From the IMG/VR virus record IMGVR_UViG_3300034072_000997, positions 1 through 46,503 of that record: a stretch of 46,503 nt of DNA; one strand, written 5' to 3'. Below are positions 1 through 17,806 of the stretch, piece by piece. A program made the position numbers and the translations under genes. Under the pieces are notes generated by a model. That model saw only the letters and a list, made by a program, of their open reading frames with translations. It ran no database searches and was not told the origin of the DNA. Position 1 is the stretch's first letter. Each line of letters starts with the position of its first letter. The DNA comes from a virus.

Positions 1-2222
1 TGAGCGCTCGCTCTGCGGCGCCTGAGAAGATGACTACCCAAGAGTGGCAGATGTTTCTGATCACTGCTTTGCGTACACGCGGCGCTACGGATGACGGATG
101 GCCTTACATGCTGATGGCTGGTCGACTGTACACAGTGTACCTGATGAAGCTGCTTCATGGTGACAAGTATCCTTCCCTGAAGGACCACCTGAAAGAAGTT
201 CATGCCGCTGGCCTGTCCCGTAACCTGGGATACCGTGATGAAGAGCTGGACTACATCGACAAGTTCATCTTGAACCACGAAGCCAATCTGACCATGGCTT
301 ACCCCCAAGTCGAGCAGTACTACAAGAAGTATTCGTTGCGTGACCGCGTGACTGACAAGGTGTATGAGACACCACAATTCACGATCATTCGCATGGCCAT
401 GGCTGTATGTGAAAACGATCAGCCTGTGGTTCGCCTGTCCCGCATCAAAGAGTTGTATGACTCGTTGGTCAAAGACACAGTCAATCCTCCCACACCTAAC
501 TACTCGGCACTGGGTACCAACCACTACGGTATGGCTTCTTGCTGCCTGATTGCATCCACTGACGACGCTAAGTCGATCCTGGTGGCTGGTGTGATTGGTT
601 ACATGATGACTTTGGCCTCCGGTGGTCTGGGTATCCAAGCATCGGTACGCGCACCTGGTGATCCAGTTGACGGTGGACGAGTGGAACATGCTGGTCGATT
701 GAACTACGACCGATTCTATATCGGTGCGACAACTGCCAATAAACAAGGCATGCGCGGTGGTGCTCTGAATCTGTACGATACCGTCTTCAATCCTGAAGCT
801 GAGCAGAACGCCATGCTGCAAAACCCTCGCACTCCTGTGGAAGTGCGTGAGCGTCGCGTCAATGTGACATATCAAACCAATGCCTTCTTCATTAAGAAGG
901 CTGTTCGTGACGAACAATACTTCACTTTCACTGAGTTCTCGGCTCCTGATCTGTATCAGGCTTTCTTCAAGGCAGATCAAACTGAATTTGAAGAACTGTA
1001 CGCTAAGTACGAAGCTGATCCCAACTTCAAGAAGGACTACCGCAGTGCTCGCAAGACACTGAATCTGTTCTTGGCTCAAGAGCTGGAAGTCTCGACGGTG
1101 TTTTGGAATAATCCCGCTGAGATGAATCGTCACACTCCTTTCAAGGACATTCTGCGTCAGTCCAATCTGTGTGTGGAAGTGATGACACCTACCAATCCCT
1201 GGATGGATCTGCAAGATCTGTACGATGCGGAAGGTAATCCTGAAAAGGGTGAAGTGGGCATTTGCAACATCGGCTCGATCGCTATTCATAATCTGCCTTT
1301 CGATCCTCGTGATCCAAAGCTGGGTTTCAATGAATACAAACGCGCAGTGCGCTCGATGATGGAAATCATTGACTACGCTATCGACAACAGCGAATACCAC
1401 TTCCCTGCAATTAAGACTCAAGCCATCTCTCGTCGCAACTGCTCGGTAGGTATGTCTGGCGTGGCCACGCTATTGGCCAAGCTGGGACTACGAATCAACA
1501 CTCCTGAAGGTCTGCATGTTTGGCACATGCTCAATGAGCGTCATATGTACGCTTGTATCGAAGTGGCTCTGGAGCTGGGCGTGGAACGCGGCAACGCTCC
1601 TTGGATGCATCGCACCAAGTGGGTGGATGGCTGGATGCCTATCGATTCCTACAACAAGAACATCGACAAGTACGTCGACAACACCCTGTACTTCGATTGG
1701 GAGAATCTGCGCGGTCGCGTGGTTGAGAACAAGGGCATTCGTTTCTCGTGCTTGGTGGCACATATGCCCGGCGAGCAAGCTACTCGTAAGGGTAATGGCT
1801 CGAACTCGATTTACCCATTGCTTGGTTTGTCGATGGATAAGTCGGATGGATCGTCCGCTACCAGCTGGGCGGCGCTGGATAACGACATCATGGGACATGC
1901 TTACGGCAATGCCTATGATTACACCGATGAGGAAATCTACATCTACTACGGTGTTTGCCAGAAGTTCACAGACCAAGGCATTTCCGCAGACGACTACATG
2001 AACCGTATCGTCAATACTGAGGTGACTGAGGAGATGCTTCTCAATCGCGCAGTCTGGCGTCATCGCGTTGGCATGAAGTCCAAGTACTATGGTCGTTCAC
2101 TGACGGACCAAGGCGGCAAGCAAAAGGAAATCCAACTGAATCCTGCTGTCGCTGAAAGTGTACAGGACGACGGTTTCCAAGCTGGAGCCTCTTGTACGCT
2201 TGATGGGGTCTGCGGCGCATAA
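1..2222 (+). CDS. nrdA: Ribonucleoside-diphosphate reductase, alpha (large) subunit, 5' truncated by window edge
   Basis: Class I ribonucleotide reductase catalytic subunit, which reduces ribonucleoside diphosphates to deoxy forms for phage DNA synthesis. Numbering from the Met at base 30: first redox cysteine in ASCCL (C171/C172), radical-site motif NLCVE (N379, C381, E383), partner cysteine C412 in GICNIGS, radical-transfer tyrosine pair Y686-Y687, and a C-terminal cysteine pair C722/C728 that would be regenerated by a glutaredoxin or thioredoxin. The frame stays open upstream of base 30 to the window edge. Alignment by eye with T4 NrdA places that Met well inside the protein, so the start lies outside the window and the visible 730 residues lack the N-terminal ATP-cone region. 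A hairpin terminator follows. The enzyme assignment is very secure; only the N-terminus is unknown. Confidence 0.96.
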   Translation, partial: SARSAAPEKMTTQEWQMFLITALRTRGATDDGWPYMLMAGRLYTVYLMKLLHGDKYPSLKDHLKEVHAAGLSRNLGYRDEELDYIDKFILNHEANLTMAYPQVEQYYKKYSLRDRVTDKVYETPQFTIIRMAMAVCENDQPVVRLSRIKELYDSLVKDTVNPPTPNYSALGTNHYGMASCCLIASTDDAKSILVAGVIGYMMTLASGGLGIQASVRAPGDPVDGGRVEHAGRLNYDRFYIGATTANKQGMRGGALNLYDTVFNPEAEQNAMLQNPRTPVEVRERRVNVTYQTNAFFIKKAVRDEQYFTFTEFSAPDLYQAFFKADQTEFEELYAKYEADPNFKKDYRSARKTLNLFLAQELEVSTVFWNNPAEMNRHTPFKDILRQSNLCVEVMTPTNPWMDLQDLYDAEGNPEKGEVGICNIGSIAIHNLPFDPRDPKLGFNEYKRAVRSMMEIIDYAIDNSEYHFPAIKTQAISRRNCSVGMSGVATLLAKLGLRINTPEGLHVWHMLNERHMYACIEVALELGVERGNAPWMHRTKWVDGWMPIDSYNKNIDKYVDNTLYFDWENLRGRVVENKGIRFSCLVAHMPGEQATRKGNGSNSIYPLLGLSMDKSDGSSATSWAALDNDIMGHAYGNAYDYTDEEIYIYYGVCQKFTDQGISADDYMNRIVNTEVTEEMLLNRAVWRHRVGMKSKYYGRSLTDQGGKQKEIQLNPAVAESVQDDGFQAGASCTLDGVCGA

Positions 2223-2231
2223 GCAAAAACG

Positions 2232-2259
2232 AAGGGTCTAGGTAACACTAGACCCTTTT
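2232..2259 (+). terminator. Intrinsic terminator after nrdA
   Basis: A perfect 10-bp stem (2232-2241 with 2248-2257) closes a 6-base loop, GTAACA. The 3' arm runs into TTTT. It lies 9 bases after the nrdA stop and before the next gene's ribosome-binding site. Read-through to the nrdB cistrons is possible. Confidence 0.75.
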
Positions 2260-2282
2260 CATAACCGACTCTCAGAGGTGAT

Positions 2283-2666
2283 ATGGAATTTGCCATTTTT
2301 ATTTATTTAGCAGCCACTGCTAACAAAATTATAGGTATTCTGGCTTTGGTTGGAATAATGATATTGGTGGTTATCTTACTTATTTCAGGCGTAGCATCGA
2401 TTGATAATATCAGTCAGCCTACCCGTGAAAAATATCCCCTTGAGAGTCGCCGTGGTCAGATCGCTACGATGATCGGAGTTATTCTGATATTACTAGCGAT
2501 CATATTACCGACAGAGCGAACATTGTATATGATGGCTGCTGGATACTTAGATCAAAAAGTACCTCAATCATCAATCGGCGAAAATATCGTTAAATTAATC
2601 AACCAAAAACTCGATAGTTACCTTGTCAAGGAACCGTCGTCCAGTGGTAAAGGAAGTAATAAATGA
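2283..2666 (+). CDS. Two-TM membrane protein between nrdA and nrdB, unknown function
   Basis: A 127-residue protein not recognised as any family. Two strongly hydrophobic stretches are visible: residues about 5-38 (rich in I, L, V, ending LLISGV) and about 59-80 (IATMIGVILILLAIILP). A short polar region separates them, and a polar, serine/lysine-rich tail ends the protein. It probably sits in the host inner membrane. GAGGTGAT upstream of the ATG is a plausible ribosome-binding site. The stop overlaps the nrdB start in an ATGA arrangement, so it is translationally coupled to nrdB. It is unusual for a membrane-protein gene to separate the two reductase subunit genes. Whether it acts with the reductase or is a passenger cannot be told from sequence. 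Confidence 0.85.
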   Translation: MEFAIFIYLAATANKIIGILALVGIMILVVILLISGVASIDNISQPTREKYPLESRRGQIATMIGVILILLAIILPTERTLYMMAAGYLDQKVPQSSIGENIVKLINQKLDSYLVKEPSSSGKGSNK

Positions 2667-3769
2667 CTCAAGAAAATCTGGCCTTTAATCAGAACGCAAT
2701 TTACGAGTTCCAACGCGGCTCTATGTTCCTACAGGGACAACGCGGACTGATCGACTCTGTTCATCGTGTACACGAAGATGTCTTCAGTACATATAAATTG
2801 CTCAAGCGCCAAGACTGGGACGAGCTGGAGTTTGAGCTGGTCAATGCCCGTGCTGACTTTGCACGCTATCCCAAGCATGGCGAGATGATGAAGAACAACA
2901 TCGGCTGGCAATGGTCGGGTGATAGTGCAGCGGCGAATTCCCTGGTTCCCATGGTCGCTCCATTCCAACCCTGCTCGGATGCGTGGCTGTGGTTTGTCAA
3001 GCAAGGCGAGAACGAGAACCTGCATGCGCTGTCGTACTCCGAATGCGTGAAGATCTCGGTGCCTGATGGCATGCGTGAAATCCTGCGCATCCACCGCGAC
3101 CAAGACACTATGCGTCGTGTCAACTACATCACTGAGGTGTTCGATCACGTCATGAAGGTCGGTGCCAAGATGCAACTGGGTATGGTCGATTGGCGTAGCG
3201 AAGAAGCATCGGATGCACTGATGCTGATGCTGTGCGCTATCTTCTGCCTGGAGCGTCAGCAGTTCATGCCTTCGTTCGCCAATACGGCTGCTCTGTTCTT
3301 CCAGAGCATGTTTGTGCCTATTGGTCAAACTGTGCAGAAGATCGCTGTCGATGAATGGGGTACCCATATCCCTCAAATTCGTCGCATCATCCAACATGAG
3401 CTGACGATCCCCGAGCGCCGCGCATCCATGAAGCGTATCGAACCTCTGGTTCGTAACCTGATCGAAGAAGTTGCTCACAATGAAGTGACTTGGAATACTC
3501 GTCAATTCCAGATCGGCGGTGAGCAAGTCGGAATGACTGAGCAAATGGGCGCTGATTACGAATACTACGCAGCTACTGATGTGGCTAATGAGCTGGGTAT
3601 CGTGACGAATGTACCTGTGATCACACGCAATCCTTTGCCTATGATGGATAACTTCCTGAACCTGAACCGTGAGCAAAAAGCAGTCATGGAAGGCAAGGGC
3701 GGTAATTACCAAACTGTGGCTGTCAAGAAGAGCGGCACACTGACCAGTCTGAATATCGACGATCTGTAA
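2663..3769 (+). CDS. nrdB: Ribonucleoside-diphosphate reductase, beta (radical) subunit
   Basis: The small subunit of class I ribonucleotide reductase, holding the di-iron centre and tyrosyl radical. Residues line up with E. coli NrdB at a constant offset: D87 (for D84), E118-x-x-H121-x-x-x-Y125 (for E115, H118, Y122), E197-x3-F201-x3-F205 (for E204, F208, F212) and E231 (for E238). The radical tyrosine is present. The last iron ligand is odd: the usual E-x-x-H is written E231-W-G-T-H235, one residue longer, with Thr at the expected His position. At 368 residues it is of normal length. It starts within the upstream stop (ATGA) and is followed by a small membrane-protein gene after a 12-base gap. 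Confidence 0.95.
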   Translation: MTQENLAFNQNAIYEFQRGSMFLQGQRGLIDSVHRVHEDVFSTYKLLKRQDWDELEFELVNARADFARYPKHGEMMKNNIGWQWSGDSAAANSLVPMVAPFQPCSDAWLWFVKQGENENLHALSYSECVKISVPDGMREILRIHRDQDTMRRVNYITEVFDHVMKVGAKMQLGMVDWRSEEASDALMLMLCAIFCLERQQFMPSFANTAALFFQSMFVPIGQTVQKIAVDEWGTHIPQIRRIIQHELTIPERRASMKRIEPLVRNLIEEVAHNEVTWNTRQFQIGGEQVGMTEQMGADYEYYAATDVANELGIVTNVPVITRNPLPMMDNFLNLNREQKAVMEGKGGNYQTVAVKKSGTLTSLNIDDL

Positions 3770-3781
3770 AAGGAGTTAGCT

Positions 3782-3922
3782 ATGCTTGAGATTTTGAAAT
3801 TCTGTTTCTCCAGTGGCTGGAATCTCATTTGCACTATTTTAGTAATACTGGCTCTTGGGTACTCGATCCGGGAAACACTAGAAGGTGTAGCGTCCGTCAT
3901 TGCTGCTAAAGTAATGAAATAA
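3782..3922 (+). CDS. 46-residue single-TM protein downstream of nrdB
   Basis: A short gene preceded by a very good ribosome-binding site (AAAAGGAGTTAGCT before ATG). The product begins MLEILKFCF, has one hydrophobic segment (about residues 14-26, LICTILVILALGY) and ends with a short amphipathic basic tail (VIAAKVMK). It is predicted to be a small inner-membrane protein. It sits directly after nrdB and before a strong hairpin, so it is the last cistron of the nrd unit. No family is recognised. The strong SD and tight spacing are the main reasons to call it real. Confidence 0.7.
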   Translation: MLEILKFCFSSGWNLICTILVILALGYSIRETLEGVASVIAAKVMK

Positions 3923-3929
3923 TCACTCT

Positions 3930-3963
3930 CCCTACTACCACGGCACAAGCCGTGGTAGTAGGG
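3930..3963 (+). terminator. Hairpin terminator closing the nrd unit
   Basis: A perfect 14-bp stem (3930-3943 with 3950-3963) with loop CACAAG. No uridine tract follows immediately; TTTT appears only at 3976-3979, where the next candidate promoter begins. It belongs to the set of long hairpins found at transcription-unit borders in this window. Confidence 0.65.
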
Positions 3964-3975
3964 AAGTTTGATGCC

Positions 3976-4004
3976 TTTTCTAAAAATATATAGACGCATA
4001 TACT
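3976..4004 (+). promoter_or_regulatory. Candidate phage promoter, copy 1 of a repeated motif
   Basis: AAAAATATAT (3982-3991), five free bases, then CATATACT (3997-4004), preceded by CCTTTT. The same two blocks with the same five-base spacing occur at 35067-35089. TATACT resembles a sigma-70 -10 box; the -35 (TTTTCT at 17 bases) is poor. A start near 4011 would give a leader of about 60 bases for the gene at 4070. The site lies directly after a terminator hairpin, as a promoter should. Confidence 0.55.
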
Positions 4005-4069
4005 CTACTTGAGATATCGCGGCGTATTGCTGCATATCTGACAGCTTCAAAAACTAGAAAGTGTTTTAT

Positions 4070-5296
4070 ATGCAGCATTACTCTGAACTGAGCGAACACG
4101 AACGCCAGCTTATCGAGATCAACCGCTCCATCAATAACAATGTTTTGCTAACAAGACATTGCCGCCCAGTGGCGCTAAGCGCAGCTGAGGCCAAATCGAT
4201 CGAAATCGGTCATGTCAATTCTGGCGTGATCTACGCAAACACTTCCGAACAGAACCTTATTATTAAGGACGCTGTCGGTATGCCGATCATTATCGCCGCT
4301 AAGAATGTAGATCGCAGACTTAGCGGTATTCCTCGTCTACCTTGGATGAAGCCTGACAATCTTTATGTCATTCGCTTCAATAGTTTTGATGCATCTGCAT
4401 TGATTCAGCACCACCGAGGACGTATAGATGAGATTGCGACGGACACGGTCAATGCTTACACTGGTTTGTGCTCTCGCAGTCCAAGTGCAGAGTCACCTCA
4501 CCAGCAGTTCATAGAACACGGCCTGAGACAAAACATCTACAAAGAGGTAAAGCCCATCGCTGACGGCTTACCTACTCCTATAACTGGTTTCACAGTACAG
4601 GAGATCAAAATCACCGATCTATCCAAAGATAAGGCCACGTATATCGAAGCAGCGGATGTTGTCGTTGCTATGATCGAGTATCGCGAGGTTCATGATGGAT
4701 TGTATCGGGAGCTGAAGTATCGCGGAGATCTTTACCATCCCAGTGTGTGTGGTTTGACTTCTTCGCAAATGCATATGCTCAAGAACTCCAAGGATGGGGG
4801 TACTTATTTCCGCGAGATCAAAGTGCTTGACAACAAGCGCAGCTACGAAAATATGTACGTCTATGTTTCTGACTTTAACGGCATCACACCTTTGATCGTG
4901 CAGTATGACAGTTCTGTCACGGCACCGACGATTGTTGTGACTGAGAAAGATAAAGAGACTGGAGCACTTTCAACCAGACTTGTCTCTCTTGAAGAGGGTC
5001 ATACGGTCGGCGTATTTAAAACTGAAGCAGCTGCTCAGAATTCTTGCCCGACGTATATCAAGAACGCTACTGAGAAAATCAAGGAGGCTGAGAAAACCAT
5101 CTCAGAAGCCGAGCACCGAATGAAGGTGCAAGATATCAGGGAGCGGATCAACACAGCAGAGCGCAAGGAGTTTATTAATAAAACGAGTGAGCGCGCTAAT
5201 CATCATGAAGGGCTCAAAATAGCCGCGCAATTGGCTACGTCATTTGCCGCAATTCTTGCAGCCCTTGCCACAATTATCAAATTGGTAAATCAATAA
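4070..5296 (+). CDS. Unknown protein with C-terminal coiled coil and membrane segment
   Basis: A 408-residue protein of no recognised family. The first ~300 residues look globular and mixed alpha/beta. About 325-385 is charged, heptad-rich and alanine/glutamate-rich (likely coiled coil, for example KIKEAEKTISEAEHRM), and the last ~24 residues are a hydrophobic helix (QLATSFAAILAALATIIKLV). The order suggests a membrane- or virion-anchored protein. The frame also allows GTG at 4061; ATG at 4070 is preferred because AGAAAG sits at better spacing. It is the first gene after the candidate promoter at 3976 and is followed 11 bases later by the next gene, which has a good SD, so it heads a three-gene rightward unit. 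Confidence 0.8.
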   Translation: MQHYSELSEHERQLIEINRSINNNVLLTRHCRPVALSAAEAKSIEIGHVNSGVIYANTSEQNLIIKDAVGMPIIIAAKNVDRRLSGIPRLPWMKPDNLYVIRFNSFDASALIQHHRGRIDEIATDTVNAYTGLCSRSPSAESPHQQFIEHGLRQNIYKEVKPIADGLPTPITGFTVQEIKITDLSKDKATYIEAADVVVAMIEYREVHDGLYRELKYRGDLYHPSVCGLTSSQMHMLKNSKDGGTYFREIKVLDNKRSYENMYVYVSDFNGITPLIVQYDSSVTAPTIVVTEKDKETGALSTRLVSLEEGHTVGVFKTEAAAQNSCPTYIKNATEKIKEAEKTISEAEHRMKVQDIRERINTAERKEFINKTSERANHHEGLKIAAQLATSFAAILAALATIIKLVNQ

Positions 5297-5307
5297 AGGA
5301 GTGATCA

Positions 5308-6981
5308 ATGAGTCATCGAGTCCACAGTGTCAACGAGATGATCTGCCGAGAGATTACACCCAAGCTAAACCCCGATATCATGCGAGGTTTAGCAACGGTG
5401 ATGCTCAAGGGGTCGACCGAATATATCGACGCTGTTGCTCGCCGGAACTTTCACGGCTGTGTGCCTGGTGTGGAATATCTGGGTTACGAATTGTGTACTC
5501 CTGAAGAGGAGTTCCGCGAACGAACCAAGATGAAAACCAATCGACGCCAATATGACTATGCGCCGTCTGATCTGTACATGATCAAACTCAAGCTAGGCAT
5601 GTGGGTCGGTGGACGCCTGGAGCCATTCAAGCCCAAATACATCGAGCTACCATTTTGCCGTGACGGCAGCTTGATCAATCTTGGCGGGACGCTGTCTCAT
5701 ATCAAGATGGTCTTGACCAACAAAGTGATTTCCCCTGGCAATCGTTTGTTGTTTGTGCGTATGCTCGGCACTCGCAAGAACTTCTTTCGCAACGGTTACT
5801 CCATTAAGGTTGACGGTGAGACCAAGACTACGTTCGTGGTGCACTCTGCAATCTATGATGCGAAGACTTCTGCAAAGAAAGCCGCTCCTGGTACCTTGAC
5901 CACCAAGGCTGTATCCGTGATGACGCACTATCTGCTGATTCGTTACGGATATACCGAGATGTTCAAGAAATATCTGGGACACGTCCCAGTGATCGGAACA
6001 GCCCAAGAAATCACAGAGGAGAAATTCCCCGCTAGTGATTGGGTCATCGTCTCTACTGCACACACTCACATCAAGCCAGCTGGCGTGGTGGAGTCGCTGT
6101 ACGAGCCGACGAACATCAAAATGGCTGTACGCCGGGACAAGTGGAACCAACAGACGATCTCCTTGGTCTCTGAGCTGTTCTACATCATCGACCACTTCCC
6201 TAGTCATGTGACTGTGGAAGATATGGATAATACCAACAACTGGATTCGCCTGCTGGGCTTTATCTTGGTTGGTGGTCAGTACACCATTGGTCGTATCTTC
6301 AGTCAGATGACCGAACATCTGACATCTCTGGATGATTTCGTTGATGAGTTCGCTATAGACAAACTGTCTGAAAAGGGTTATGAAGTTCGTGACTTCTATG
6401 ACCTAGCCGCGATGCTCTCGATGCGATTCCCGGATCTTCTCGCAGAGAATGATCGAGCAGGTAACATCTACGAAAAGTATTATGACGTGATGTATCACGT
6501 CATGCGACATGTGACTTATGCGTTGACTAAAGCGCGATATGCGATGCAGCATGCTGCAAAGCGTAAGCGTCCGGCCCAGGATGAAACTGGCAACGGTGGA
6601 TTGTTTACGAATTTGGAACAGGTCTTATCCCGCAAACTAAACTCTGGTGCTATCTTCAAGTTGCAAGGGGACAACACAGTACTAGAGCCGGTATCTTACA
6701 GCGCAGATTTGTGGTACCCCCGTATCACGTCAAAAGTATCTGAGCAGGAAAAGGTCAACGGTGCAAAATCCTCGGGACGCCGAGGCATGAGTGAAGCGGA
6801 TTATCTAGATGTCTCCCAGATCGAAGGCGGCTCATTGCTCTTCTTGCCAAAGGGTAATCCGGTACCAACCGCTAACGGTAATCCTTATATGAGAATTGAT
6901 CTCAAAACAGGATCGATCATTCCCAACCCAGAACTCGCTGGGTTGTTGGCAGAAACAAAGTCTAAGCTTGACGACAAATAA
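5308..6981 (+). CDS. Unknown 557-residue protein, middle gene of three-gene unit
   Basis: Starts at ATG 5308 behind AAAGGAGTGATCA, a clear ribosome-binding site. No signal peptide or membrane segment is visible. The N-terminal third holds a beta-rich patch around residues 112-175 (ELPFCRDGSLINLGG followed by FVRMLGTRKNFFR). The central part is helical with many aromatic residues. A basic stretch near 415-425 (AAKRKRPAQ) precedes a Gly/Ser-containing C-terminal region. I do not recognise the family. Its neighbours are two other large unknown genes and then, across a hairpin, the portal gene. A virion or head-assembly role is possible but is only context. Confidence 0.85.
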   Translation: MSHRVHSVNEMICREITPKLNPDIMRGLATVMLKGSTEYIDAVARRNFHGCVPGVEYLGYELCTPEEEFRERTKMKTNRRQYDYAPSDLYMIKLKLGMWVGGRLEPFKPKYIELPFCRDGSLINLGGTLSHIKMVLTNKVISPGNRLLFVRMLGTRKNFFRNGYSIKVDGETKTTFVVHSAIYDAKTSAKKAAPGTLTTKAVSVMTHYLLIRYGYTEMFKKYLGHVPVIGTAQEITEEKFPASDWVIVSTAHTHIKPAGVVESLYEPTNIKMAVRRDKWNQQTISLVSELFYIIDHFPSHVTVEDMDNTNNWIRLLGFILVGGQYTIGRIFSQMTEHLTSLDDFVDEFAIDKLSEKGYEVRDFYDLAAMLSMRFPDLLAENDRAGNIYEKYYDVMYHVMRHVTYALTKARYAMQHAAKRKRPAQDETGNGGLFTNLEQVLSRKLNSGAIFKLQGDNTVLEPVSYSADLWYPRITSKVSEQEKVNGAKSSGRRGMSEADYLDVSQIEGGSLLFLPKGNPVPTANGNPYMRIDLKTGSIIPNPELAGLLAETKSKLDDK

Positions 6982-15094: not shown

Positions 15095-15691
15095 ATGCCG
15101 TTATACGTAGATGATAACTGGAAGACATTTAATATGCTCTGCATTGACCCAGGTAAACATCATCTTGGGGTATCGGTTCATGAACTGAACACACGCACTG
15201 GAGCATATGAAAATATTTCCATCCACAGCATCGCAGTGGATAAGACTTATGGTTCAAGAATCTTTGATCGAGAGTTTGTTTCTGGCACAGACATTAATCT
15301 AGGACGTATTCGCCACCATATTCAACAGCTGTGTTATGACTACGATGTCAAAGCACTGATGTATGAAGCGCCGTTCTATAATCGTTTCATGCCTGCTGCC
15401 TATGGCTCATTGTGCGAAGTAGTTTCTTGCATACGCCAAGCAGCTTTAGATGAAAAGCCCTATATCCTGATCGACTGCATGTCTCCGCAGAATGTCAAGA
15501 AAGGAATGGGAGCCGGTGGTACAAAGGGTAAGGAGATTATGTACGATAAAGTAACTGCTTGCGAAGAAATGATGAGTGTATTAAGATACCCAGTCTCCGC
15601 ATTGACAGAACACTGTATCGATTCACTTGCAATTGGATGGAATGCCAGAAAGACAATCCTGGCTCCTATGGAAGGATGGAAATTATGTTGA
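15095..15691 (+). CDS. RuvC-like Holliday junction resolvase
   Basis: A 198-residue RNase H-fold resolvase, which would cut branched DNA so that replicated phage DNA can be packaged. Acidic residues sit in the expected order: D18 in LCIDPGKHHLGVS, E91 in MYEAPFYN, and H173/D176 in EHCIDSLAIG, the H-x-x-D end motif. A Lys/Gly-rich segment before it (SPQNVKKGMGAGGTKGKE, about 130-147) matches the basic substrate-binding part of RuvC relatives. The length is close to RuvC. The last seven bases overlap the i-spanin start. It is the first gene of a rightward operon after the hairpin at 15024. The family is secure; cleavage specificity is unknown. Confidence 0.88.
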   Translation: MPLYVDDNWKTFNMLCIDPGKHHLGVSVHELNTRTGAYENISIHSIAVDKTYGSRIFDREFVSGTDINLGRIRHHIQQLCYDYDVKALMYEAPFYNRFMPAAYGSLCEVVSCIRQAALDEKPYILIDCMSPQNVKKGMGAGGTKGKEIMYDKVTACEEMMSVLRYPVSALTEHCIDSLAIGWNARKTILAPMEGWKLC

Positions 15692-16164
15692 CTTCATTGA
15701 GTCCTGTAGCTTTTCGAAATGATGAGCGTTTGAATATGCTCAAAGCTTTTGTCATTGGTTTCATTTTCATTGCTTTATTCAGTTTTTACGGCAATGTCAG
15801 TGAGACTATCTCTGGTTGGTTCGGTAACTCCAAGGCTGATCTCATCGAAAAGAACGTCACCCTGGACAAAGACAACAAGCAGTTGATCGAAATCAATAAA
15901 GAGATCGAACAAGACCGAAAAGTTGACAACGAGATAGCCAAAGAGCAGATCAAAGACATCATTGATTTACAGGAGACAAAAAAGAAGACCGCTGACCAGG
16001 TAGCTAAAAAGAAAAAGGCTACTCAGGTAAAGTCTGATACCATTCAAAGCTCTGATAAAACAGAAGCCGAGAAAGATGTAGAGCATGCTACGATGATCAT
16101 CGAAGATATCTGGGCGTCGCACTGCGAAGTATTTACTTGCGTACAAGGAAAGTCAAATGTTTAA
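15685..16164 (+). CDS. Inner-membrane spanin (Rz-like)
   Basis: A 159-residue protein with one N-terminal membrane helix (about 19-37, LKAFVIGFIFIALFSFYG) followed by a long, highly charged Lys/Glu/Asp helix of about 100 residues, the i-spanin design. With the outer-membrane spanin it would link and fuse the two membranes in the last step of Gram-negative lysis. The frame extends upstream, but ATG 15685 is preferred because GGATGGAAATT precedes it and the TM is then N-terminal. It overlaps the resolvase end by 7 bases and the o-spanin start by 8. The overlap with a small lipoprotein gene is the strongest support. Two cysteines near the end could form a disulphide-linked dimer. Confidence 0.82.
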   Translation: MLTSLSPVAFRNDERLNMLKAFVIGFIFIALFSFYGNVSETISGWFGNSKADLIEKNVTLDKDNKQLIEINKEIEQDRKVDNEIAKEQIKDIIDLQETKKKTADQVAKKKKATQVKSDTIQSSDKTEAEKDVEHATMIIEDIWASHCEVFTCVQGKSNV

Positions 16165-16468
16165 ATTCATCACCGTGATTTTTGTCTCTTTGTTTCTGGT
16201 AGCTTGTGGAACTACGGCTCCCATCGTGGCCAAGACAAAGAAAGAAGCTGTCGTTGTGCCTGATAGCTTCTTCAAAGAGCCAGATGCCCCGACTCCTCCT
16301 GACCGTGAGGCTTACATCAAAGCCAATCCGAAAGAGCGAGAGACAATGCTAGCTCAATATATCCAAAGCCTACACGGAGTGATCAAAGACTACAAGGACA
16401 CACTCAAGAGTGTCTATGACTCCATGAAGACTTCGGAGAAACTCATCAACGAAGGAACAAAGCCATGA
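16157..16468 (+). CDS. Outer-membrane spanin lipoprotein (Rz1-like)
   Basis: A 103-residue lipoprotein. The signal sequence MFKFITVIFVSLFLVAC ends in lipobox LVAC with the lipidated cysteine at C17. The mature part starts GTTAP, contains a proline-rich patch (PDAPTPPD, about 43-50) and a charged helix, all typical of Rz1-type o-spanins. AAGGAAAGTCAA gives a good ribosome-binding site. It overlaps the i-spanin gene by 8 bases, an overlapping Rz/Rz1 layout rather than fully embedded. Its stop overlaps the next start (ATGA). The neighbourhood has no endolysin or holin, so these must lie elsewhere in the genome. Confidence 0.85.
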   Translation: MFKFITVIFVSLFLVACGTTAPIVAKTKKEAVVVPDSFFKEPDAPTPPDREAYIKANPKERETMLAQYIQSLHGVIKDYKDTLKSVYDSMKTSEKLINEGTKP

Positions 16469-17304
16469 GTGTGACTAAAGAAGAAACCGAAATCACCTTG
16501 TATGCCAAACTCGATGATCCTGAATCTCTCAAGGAAGCAGAGAACATCGAAGATCATGTCCAGTTGGAGGTGATCGTTGCAACAGGCGCCAAGACTCGTG
16601 TTCGTAAGATCGTCCCAGTCAAGGGACAAGACGCAGAAACTGGTGAACGGTTCGAGTACACCATCAAGCAAAAGCTGCCCGACGACGCAGGTGTTCCTTC
16701 CTCTTTGGAAACCACTCAAGATGTGGACCGTAACTTCTATGTGAACTTCGCAGGTATTGCTCATCGGGCTATCGTCAAGCGCCGCTATTCGTTCCAGGGA
16801 GCTGCTCCCAAGATGAATGAAGAACTAAACTTGGCTTTGCCAGCAGTCAAGTACGAGGTGGATCAGTTCATCAATCCCAATACCAAGAAACCTTCCGAGT
16901 GGATCAAGATTGATATTGAGATTGACGAAGTGCTCAAAGCACTGCGTGAGCAAAACATCGACACCACTGGCCTGAAGCAAAGATTCAATCTTTCCAACCT
17001 TCCATTCATCGCAGCTGATATGTTCTCTCCCATGAACATGGATGAGCAGCAAAAGAAGTTGCTTGGCGACCTTTGGGAAAAAGAGTTTGCACAAGTTCTC
17101 GCCCCTGAAGTCCTGGTCAAACCCAAGGAGGATCAAGGTATCCAGCAACCACTCAATAATCCGCAGGCTGCCCAAGCGACTGAACAAGTCTCTAAGCAGG
17201 AAGATCAACAACCCAATGATCCGGCTCGCGGCGACACATGGAGCGAAGGTGATAATCCCACCAGTGATGCCGGACTAGCACCCGAGGAAAGGAGTGATGG
17301 ATAA
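16465..17304 (+). CDS. CYTH-like (triphosphate tunnel fold) protein with disordered tail, tentative
   Basis: A 279-residue protein. The first ~165 residues have the strand order of CYTH proteins (class IV adenylate cyclases, thiamine and inorganic triphosphatases): EITLYAKLDDPESL near the N-terminus resembles the E-x-E-x-K strand, then RVRKI (about 46-50), EYTIKQKL (about 63-70), the basic strand VKRRYSF (about 102-108), KYEVDQF (about 127-133) and WIKIDIEID (about 144-152). The N-terminal signature is degenerate (Thr and Tyr at expected Glu and Lys positions), so it may be inactive. About 215-279 is Gln/Pro/Asp-rich and probably disordered. It is coupled to the o-spanin gene by ATGA. The fold call is by eye; structural prediction would settle it. 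Confidence 0.45.
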   Translation: MSVTKEETEITLYAKLDDPESLKEAENIEDHVQLEVIVATGAKTRVRKIVPVKGQDAETGERFEYTIKQKLPDDAGVPSSLETTQDVDRNFYVNFAGIAHRAIVKRRYSFQGAAPKMNEELNLALPAVKYEVDQFINPNTKKPSEWIKIDIEIDEVLKALREQNIDTTGLKQRFNLSNLPFIAADMFSPMNMDEQQKKLLGDLWEKEFAQVLAPEVLVKPKEDQGIQQPLNNPQAAQATEQVSKQEDQQPNDPARGDTWSEGDNPTSDAGLAPEERSDG

Positions 17305-17320
17305 GAGTCACTAACTCCCA

Positions 17321-17806
17321 ATGAGTCAACAAGAACCAACAATCAAGCTCAACGACTTGATGGCTAAGTTCTACAATATAGGAAAGCGTGACTATAGAGG
17401 CAAAGTCTATGACAACGTGATGAGTATTTTTGACGAGCTTAGTCTTGAGGAACAAAAGCATTTTCTACGAGGGTGTCTGGGATTGTATATCGCAGCGTCT
17501 TCTTCGGTCATTCATGATCAAGAGCTTATCGACATTGGTAACATTGACGACATGCTTAGGGAGATCAGATACGCCAAAAGAGCCAGGGAGCCCTCGATGG
17601 AACAAGACACAGTCAAAGATGTGAAGAAACCAGAGCCTACCTCTGAGGCAGGACAGCTCACAGTTTTCAAAGCTGGGGCTATCGCCATCTTCTTCGTGGT
17701 ACTTATGCATTTGCTCTTGATCGCAAGCACGGACGATCCGGATGCGATTCAGACAGCTAAGGTGTATAAGAACATGTTCGACATCATTCAAGTTTTCGCT
17801 AAATGA
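17321..17806 (+). CDS. Unknown C-terminally anchored membrane protein
   Basis: A 161-residue protein with a soluble helical N-terminal part, a polar Lys/Pro/Glu linker (about 85-110) and one clear membrane helix at about 115-134 (GAIAIFFVVLMHLLLIAS), then a short charged tail. It is not recognised. No good ribosome-binding site lies close before ATG 17321, so translation may depend on the preceding gene, whose stop is 16 bases upstream. It is the last gene of the resolvase-spanin operon; a lysis role (such as a holin or antiholin) is conceivable from context, but a single C-terminal TM is weak evidence. Confidence 0.75.
   Translation: MSQQEPTIKLNDLMAKFYNIGKRDYRGKVYDNVMSIFDELSLEEQKHFLRGCLGLYIAASSSVIHDQELIDIGNIDDMLREIRYAKRAREPSMEQDTVKDVKKPEPTSEAGQLTVFKAGAIAIFFVVLMHLLLIASTDDPDAIQTAKVYKNMFDIIQVFAK

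Follow-up and report, generated by a model that had tools for sequence, protein, structure and literature searches.

Can a phage protein that resembles a CYTH enzyme, and has exchanged the lysine of the motif that marks such enzymes, still be expected to act on triphosphates? The question is raised by a gene in the viral record IMGVR_UViG_3300034072_000997, positions 1 to 46,503 of which were analysed as one stretch (the window). An earlier note, drawn from the sequence alone, had described the product as a CYTH-like protein with a degenerate active site, linked to spanin genes, and had suggested that it might bind or hydrolyse a nucleotide messenger or triphosphate, for example as a sponge for a defence signal, or be a re-used fold. 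The gene, its parts and its neighbours are listed in Table 1.

Table 1. The CYTH-like gene, its parts and its neighbours, in window coordinates.
Feature	Position	Strand	Basis
RuvC-like resolvase of conserved gene block	15095..15691	+	PHROG, flank homology
i-spanin-like protein, one N-terminal hydrophobic segment and charged helix	15685..16164	+	read by eye
o-spanin-like lipoprotein, 103 aa, lipobox LVAC, ATGA overlap with CYTH start	16157..16468	+	read by eye, weak PHROG
TTM/CYTH-fold protein of jumbo phages (phrog_14791), 279 aa	16465..17304	+	ORF, PHROG match, AF2 model
Tunnel domain and C-terminal helices, residues 1-210	16465..17094	+	pLDDT blocks 80-97, mostly at least 88
Strand 1, E7-x-E9-x-T11: putative metal-binding ExE kept, Thr for Lys of ExExK	16483..16497	+	alignments
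R45-x-R47, putative phosphate-binding RxR	16597..16605	+	alignment
K68, equated with SaTTM K69, AtTTM3 K76, YgiF K69	16666..16668	+	alignment, equivalences made here
K105-x-R107, equated with SaTTM K110/R112	16777..16785	+	alignment, equivalence made here
E131-x-D133, strand 7, common to NeuTTM-like short TTMs	16855..16863	+	alignments
Strand 8, K148-x-D150-x-E152: apparently relocated Lys and acidic metal pair	16906..16920	+	alignments
C-terminal tail, disordered, acid- and Q/N/P/G/A/S/T-rich	17113..17301	+	AF2 model
Small protein, one hydrophobic segment, with homologs in L017 and L018	17321..17806	+	flank homology

Predicted fold and family

An AlphaFold2 model of the window protein, built from 34 sequences, has strands at residues 3-16, 27-39, 42-53, 62-74, 77-87, 101-111, 129-136 and 143-152, followed by helices and a disordered tail. 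All eight strands fall within residues 3-152, in agreement with the CYTH strand order that the earlier note had read in the N-terminal part. The eight-stranded tunnel of the CYTH/TTM superfamily is also seen in a second model, that of the divergent relative L058 (the Moabite gp020 protein, 22% identical to the window protein; pLDDT 95.5, pTM 0.90), which draws the same kinds of structural match, with 2gfg ranking first.

Structural comparison of the window model, with VIA-align run on Foldseek's top 1000 PDB chains, supported the predicted fold: its best matches among solved structures are triphosphate tunnel metalloenzymes (TTMs), SaTTM (7nsf; Z 11.4, rmsd 3.2, 148 residues) and AtTTM3 (5a68; Z 11.3), with YgiF (5a60) at Z 9.7 and NeuTTM (2fbl) at Z 8.9. 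Two entries titled ‘putative adenylate cyclase’, titles that are annotations, scored Z 11.0 (3sy3) and 10.4 (2gfg). CyaB-type structures gave Z 8.1-8.6, and the capping triphosphatases Cet1, mimivirus and vaccinia gave Z about 7. A Mediator chain, which we take to be Med18, matched at Z 9.6; Med18 is not known to be an enzyme. Foldseek alone returned AtTTM3 at E 7.5e-6, and YgiF and the vaccinia capping complex at E 2.6e-4. Within the BFVD library of viral structures, the Ralstonia phage RP12 ‘CYTH domain-containing protein’, which already bears the CYTH name in UniProt, was the second-ranked match; this protein and the RSL2/RSF1 proteins, compared by structure, matched at E 9e-14 to 2e-12.

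Searched against Pfam by itself, the window protein has no CYTH match, and its assignment therefore comes through its relatives and the structure. Five of the 34 family members matched PF01928 at E ≤ 1, and the curated cut-off was passed in two of 12 phage records (LucasX and one viral contig); no CYTH model is among the 13 NCBIfam families listed for the 34 members. When the family profile was searched against the PDB, the CYTH protein NE1496, present as two entries at E 0.0012 and E 0.0013, was the sole match up to E 10. Comparison by hhalign gave 96.9% with 11 cellular short TTMs and 96.0% with all 31 cellular CYTHs.

The sole PHROG match of the window protein is phrog_14791, a family of unannotated function (E 7e-12) that was matched by all 14 members of the first family alignment. 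Searches with tblastn, partly via intermediates, link the family to LucasX, FLC6, FLC8, FLC9, SURPRISE13, SNUABM_DT01, Goslar, PhiEaH1, SPLA10, PCH45, Klebsiella jumbo phages and the Moabite group; phrog_14791 is a family of phiKZ-like jumbo phages. Among seven phage records searched with the family profile, Goslar and PhiEaH1 matched strongly and SPN3US weakly (E 1e-4), and phiKZ, 201phi2-1, EL and OBP, which may still carry a diverged copy, gave no match. The window protein alone, used as a query against viral contigs, found none. Scanning bacterial and archaeal genomes (genome_contigs, 84,980 species) with a sequence pattern gave one relative, on a Paraburkholderia contig. This assembly contig (L073, NZ_CAAJGK010000011.1) carries the same gene block as the viral loci, and its frame includes the protein encoded by L022, a viral contig.

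Identity to the window protein among the relatives in the 34-row alignment is 22-31%. The family is under purifying selection, with dN/dS of 0.06-0.24 in nine of ten relative pairs and the tenth not computable (whole genes, tails included). The tail varies in length: in the FLC9 protein it comprises about 400 aa. Acidic, Q/N/P/G/A/S/T-rich tails of about 310-400 aa are fused to the CYTH domain in L002:7800-9764, L006:5914-7524 and L035:4677-6680.

Tunnel residues and the lysine of strand 8

Conservation in the tunnel was read from an alignment of 51 distinct family proteins, 11 short TTMs and 21 other, mostly YgiF-like, cellular CYTHs. Every phage protein (51/51) and every short TTM (11/11) has E7, E9, R45, R47, K68 and D133. 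E82 is found in 49 of the 51 phage proteins (Gln in two), and K105 and R107 in 50 each; the short TTMs have all three (11/11). Each basic tunnel residue of the superfamily (RxR, K and KxR) is accordingly present in 51 or 50 phage rows. The strand 8 acidic pair of TTM tri(poly)phosphatases is present as DxE: position 150 is Asp in 50 of 51 and Glu in one, and position 152 is Glu in 47 and Asn in four (FBKp24, KpLz, Moabite and Totoro), where the short TTMs have Glu at both positions (11/11). The change from Glu to Asp is a real departure. In the 34-sequence alignment, 12 of 168 columns are invariant, and eight of the ten tunnel positions derived from SaTTM are among them (hypergeometric P 1.6e-9). 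L075, from among the 21 longer cellular sequences, departs from this pattern in having Asn in the place of E7, Lys in that of R45 and Tyr in that of K68.

Since these residues are near-invariant across the family, the active site is not broadly degenerate. What holds of the degeneracy first proposed is the loss of the ExExK lysine and the replacement of the metal-1 Glu by Asp; the other metal-binding and basic residues are near-invariant in 51 relatives. The alignments make the catalytic tunnel look largely intact, apart from one Lys that has apparently moved.

Strand 8 reads KLDIN, with Asn for the metal-2 Glu, in L010, L011, L012 and L013, from Klebsiella and Serratia jumbo phages. To judge from this substitution, the Asn-152 sub-lineage may have lost metal 2, or lost or changed catalysis.

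The altered signature was correctly noticed: strand 1 of the window protein reads E7-T-E9-I-T11, with no Lys at position 11. Across the family, ExE is kept in 51/51 proteins, and position 11 is V (19), T (14), C (6), A (5), E (3), I (2), M (1) or D (1), never Lys or Arg (0/51), whereas cellular CYTHs have Lys or Arg there in 32 of 32. The family is called a variant for this reason. Position 148 shows the converse pattern, with Lys in 51/51 phage proteins and in 0/32 cellular CYTHs, which have V, I, L or M in short TTMs and E in others. Sequence-pattern scans supplied 33 of the 51 proteins, and K148 is part of one pattern of the first scan and of the only pattern of the genome_contigs scan; the 18 proteins found otherwise (window included) all have K148 (18/18) and no Lys or Arg at position 11.

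A structural rationale for this exchange can be drawn from SaTTM, in which E7 and E135 are the ligands of metal 1, and E5, E7 and E137 those engaged in the two-calcium state (excerpts of PMC8233210). With strands 1 and 8 paired antiparallel in that register, the Lys at SaTTM residue 9 lies opposite residue 133, which corresponds to K148. K148 would thus face the lost strand 1 Lys, and the swap would be geometrically reasonable. The same excerpts state that SaTTM F133 helps to shape the pocket near the alpha-phosphate, and that AtTTM3 E167, equated here with the K148 position, is paired with the plug-helix lysine K200. An alternative strand 8 alignment, placing K148 on the metal-1 Glu, was set aside because hhalign of the mixed set puts K148/D150/E152 on YgiF-type E158/E160/E162, and joint MAFFT alignments agree. 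YgiF E160 is a metal-1 ligand (excerpt of PMC4641920; YgiF numbering counted here). Against the chosen register, strand 8 was misplaced when hhalign was run against only the 11 short TTMs, and in one alignment series two of three settings did not reach this strand.

Beyond these positions, the family resembles the short bacterial TTMs (NeuTTM NE1496, CthTTM; PF01928) in its ExE, Gln33, RxR, TxK, Glu82, KxRY, WEVDxF and strand 8 acidic pair. At residues 33, 105, 131, 133 and 135 it agrees with the short TTMs and differs from the YgiF type, and the SNUABM_DT01 copy is annotated as CthTTM-like. Unlike the short TTMs, the phage proteins have V, T, C, A or other residues at the end of ExExK, a Lys two residues ahead of the strand 8 pair, Asp for Glu at metal site 1, Tyr or Phe at position 13 (50/51, one Trp) and a longer C-terminus. 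SaTTM, from Sulfolobus acidocaldarius, shares the fold and the set E5/E7, R56/R58, K69, K110/R112 and E135/E137, but has F133 in the place of K148, Glu for D150 and an intact ExExK (excerpts of PMC8233210; equivalences made here). The AtTTM3 and E. coli YgiF tripolyphosphatases share the fold and two metal sites, and the latter has E158 (counted here) at the K148 position. Ordinary phage CYTHs (Astolliot, Vibrio 2.275.O, PhiXhv-12 and others), found in 26 records from large phages and metagenomes, belong to the same superfamily and form a lineage separate from phrog_14791. The six that were read keep EIERK and have a residue other than Lys at position 148; the lysine change is therefore not general to phages.

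Gene neighbourhood

The ATGA coupling that had been reported is present: the start codon of the CYTH gene (ATG, 16465-16467) overlaps the stop codon of the o-spanin-like gene (TGA, 16466-16468). The best PHROG match of the o-spanin-like protein is phrog_20914, of unannotated function (E 0.0013), and Rz-like spanin families match weakly (E 0.014-0.12). Two other proteins near the CYTH gene match PHROGs without assigned function (phrog_3222 and phrog_3315). Further upstream, at 3-6981, lie the large and small subunits of ribonucleotide reductase and a ‘polymerase’ (phrog_2943), and the window also encodes SbcC-like and UvsX-like proteins.

Iterated HMM searches of the flanks of 57 loci, which are redundant and have flanks of unequal length, found homologs of the RuvC protein in 27, of the i-spanin in 22 and of the o-spanin in 23. 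The order RuvC, i-spanin, o-spanin, CYTH is listed for 22 of the 23 o-spanin loci, the i-spanin not having been found in L050; some o-spanin loci have a further small gene ahead of the CYTH gene. Small proteins with one hydrophobic segment adjoin the spanin and CYTH genes in the window (17321-17806), L002:7272-7775, L006:5578-5898 and L016:5676-5954. With their short, helix-like C-terminal ends they are possible holin-like partners, homology having been shown for the window, L017 and L018.

Other lineages have other neighbours. The CYTH gene of PhiEaH1, SPLA10, FBKp24, KpLz-2_45 and Moabite has a transglycosylase gene upstream, at a distance of one to six genes, and PhuZ downstream, at four to ten genes. 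In LucasX, DHFR lies downstream of the CYTH gene and an endolysin-like gene of the Hydrolase_2 type stands five genes upstream; a 39% identical counterpart of the latter stands four genes upstream in L015. Helicase and RNAP genes are found near the CYTH gene of Goslar, and an nvRNAP gene near that of SNUABM_DT01. Among 122 neighbour proteins of non-spanin loci, Pfam gave one LysM match, its locus not given; the PHROG reading covers 25 of 92 families. The proposed spanin linkage thus describes a conserved gene order in one lineage (23/57 loci) and does not extend to the others. As the gene stands elsewhere in those lineages, it is not obligatorily a lysis-module gene; it is widespread and mobile in position.

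Proposed function and its significance

On the conserved residues and the models, the family is probably a catalytically competent, divalent-metal-dependent triphosphate tunnel hydrolase, forming a phiKZ-like jumbo-phage clade related to NeuTTM/CthTTM-like short TTMs. Triphosphate hydrolysis is a plausible, and the leading, reading of the enzyme function, and hydrolysis of inorganic tripolyphosphate or an NTP seems likelier than cyclisation. The triphosphate would thread the eight-stranded tunnel, its phosphates held by R45, R47, K68, K105 and R107. Metal 1 would be held by D150 with E9, and metal 2, held by E7, E9 and E152, would activate water against the terminal phosphate. K148 on strand 8 would take over the role of the ExExK lysine. 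Against an active enzyme, the ExExK Lys is gone, and 50 of the 51 phage proteins have Asp at the position of AtTTM3 Glu-169, a metal-1 residue whose change to Asp strongly lowers activity (excerpt of PMC4641920).

These same departures, together with Asn for E152 in 4 of 51 proteins and a Mediator chain of the same fold, would suit a fold re-used without catalysis, whether to bind or to scaffold, or to soak up a triphosphate-bearing signal as a sponge, the tunnel being kept to hold the ligand. Such a role is unlikely: metal-binding and basic residues that stay near-invariant in relatives as distant as 22-31% identity form the pattern of a working site, and E7, E9 and E152 need not be kept by a pure binder. 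The superfamily also contains class IV adenylyl cyclases, and CyaB-type structures and the two ‘putative adenylate cyclase’ entries, one of them the first match of the second model, lie among the structural matches. In those cyclases ExExK is preceded by HF, a small residue stands in the place of the first Arg of RxR, and the second strand 8 Glu is replaced by Ala (excerpts of PMC8233210). The window protein has M1-S2 in the place of HF, R45 is present in 51/51, and position 152 is Glu or Asn and never Ala, so that synthesis of cAMP deserves hardly any credence. The aromatic residue of the ThTPase motif W/YxRxR is likewise absent, position 43 being Lys in the window protein and non-aromatic in all 51 rows. 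By the rules in the excerpts of PMC8233210, the absence of the cyclase and ThTPase residues tested and the presence of the triphosphatase ones make the family TTM triphosphatase-like.

Within triphosphatase chemistry, phage transcripts could be the substrate, the protein acting as an RNA 5'-triphosphatase, by analogy with the step that TTMs carry out when eukaryotic mRNA is capped. The capping triphosphatases belong to the same superfamily, and a single gene separates the CYTH gene from an upstream RNAP beta-like gene in Goslar and from the nvRNAP gene in SNUABM_DT01. This is nevertheless improbable, as tripolyphosphatases match the structure better (Z 9-11), PHROG and Pfam revealed neither a guanylyltransferase nor an RNA-binding part in the protein, and adjacency to RNAP genes is not consistent. 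A function in lysis, for which the o-spanin homologs, the transglycosylases and the Hydrolase_2 genes would speak, is very improbable: of the 16 non-spanin loci scanned, the remaining 14 (Goslar and SNUABM_DT01 included) gave no further cell-wall hydrolase by Pfam among the 122 neighbour proteins, and late genes cluster anyway. Returning to the tunnel hydrolase, a rather speculative extension is that the family is a TTM clade of its own, with the Lys moved to the facing strand 8 position, Asp at metal 1 and a new substrate made during infection, such as the 5'-triphosphate end of phage RNA or a defence signal that bears a triphosphate.

CYTHs of jumbo phages are already known. Triphosphatases of the superfamily occur sporadically in every jumbo phage group, the breakdown of unmodified nucleotides being a possible role (excerpt of PMC7824862), and weak CYTH matches occur in the T4-like phages RB49 and Aeh1 (excerpt of PMC1524935). 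For the active-site map and the apparent Lys relocation of phrog_14791, no description was found in the open-access literature searched. Searches of that literature found nothing joining CYTH and the phage nucleus and, among the papers listed, no mention of Ralstonia phage RP12; judged by their titles and the opening of their abstracts, the papers on CYTH ExExK do not deal with phages, and for tripolyphosphatase with phage one plant paper was listed.

Consequently, phrog_14791, which is carried by Goslar, PCH45 and Moabite and has so far been without assigned function, can now be given a predicted fold, a map of its active site and a chemistry open to test. If K148 replaces the ExExK lysine, the hallmark motif of CYTH proteins is not essential, and annotation based on this motif misses active members. 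Because nearly all members read keep the tunnel residues, the family is a candidate for a conserved step in the way these phages metabolise nucleotides or RNA.
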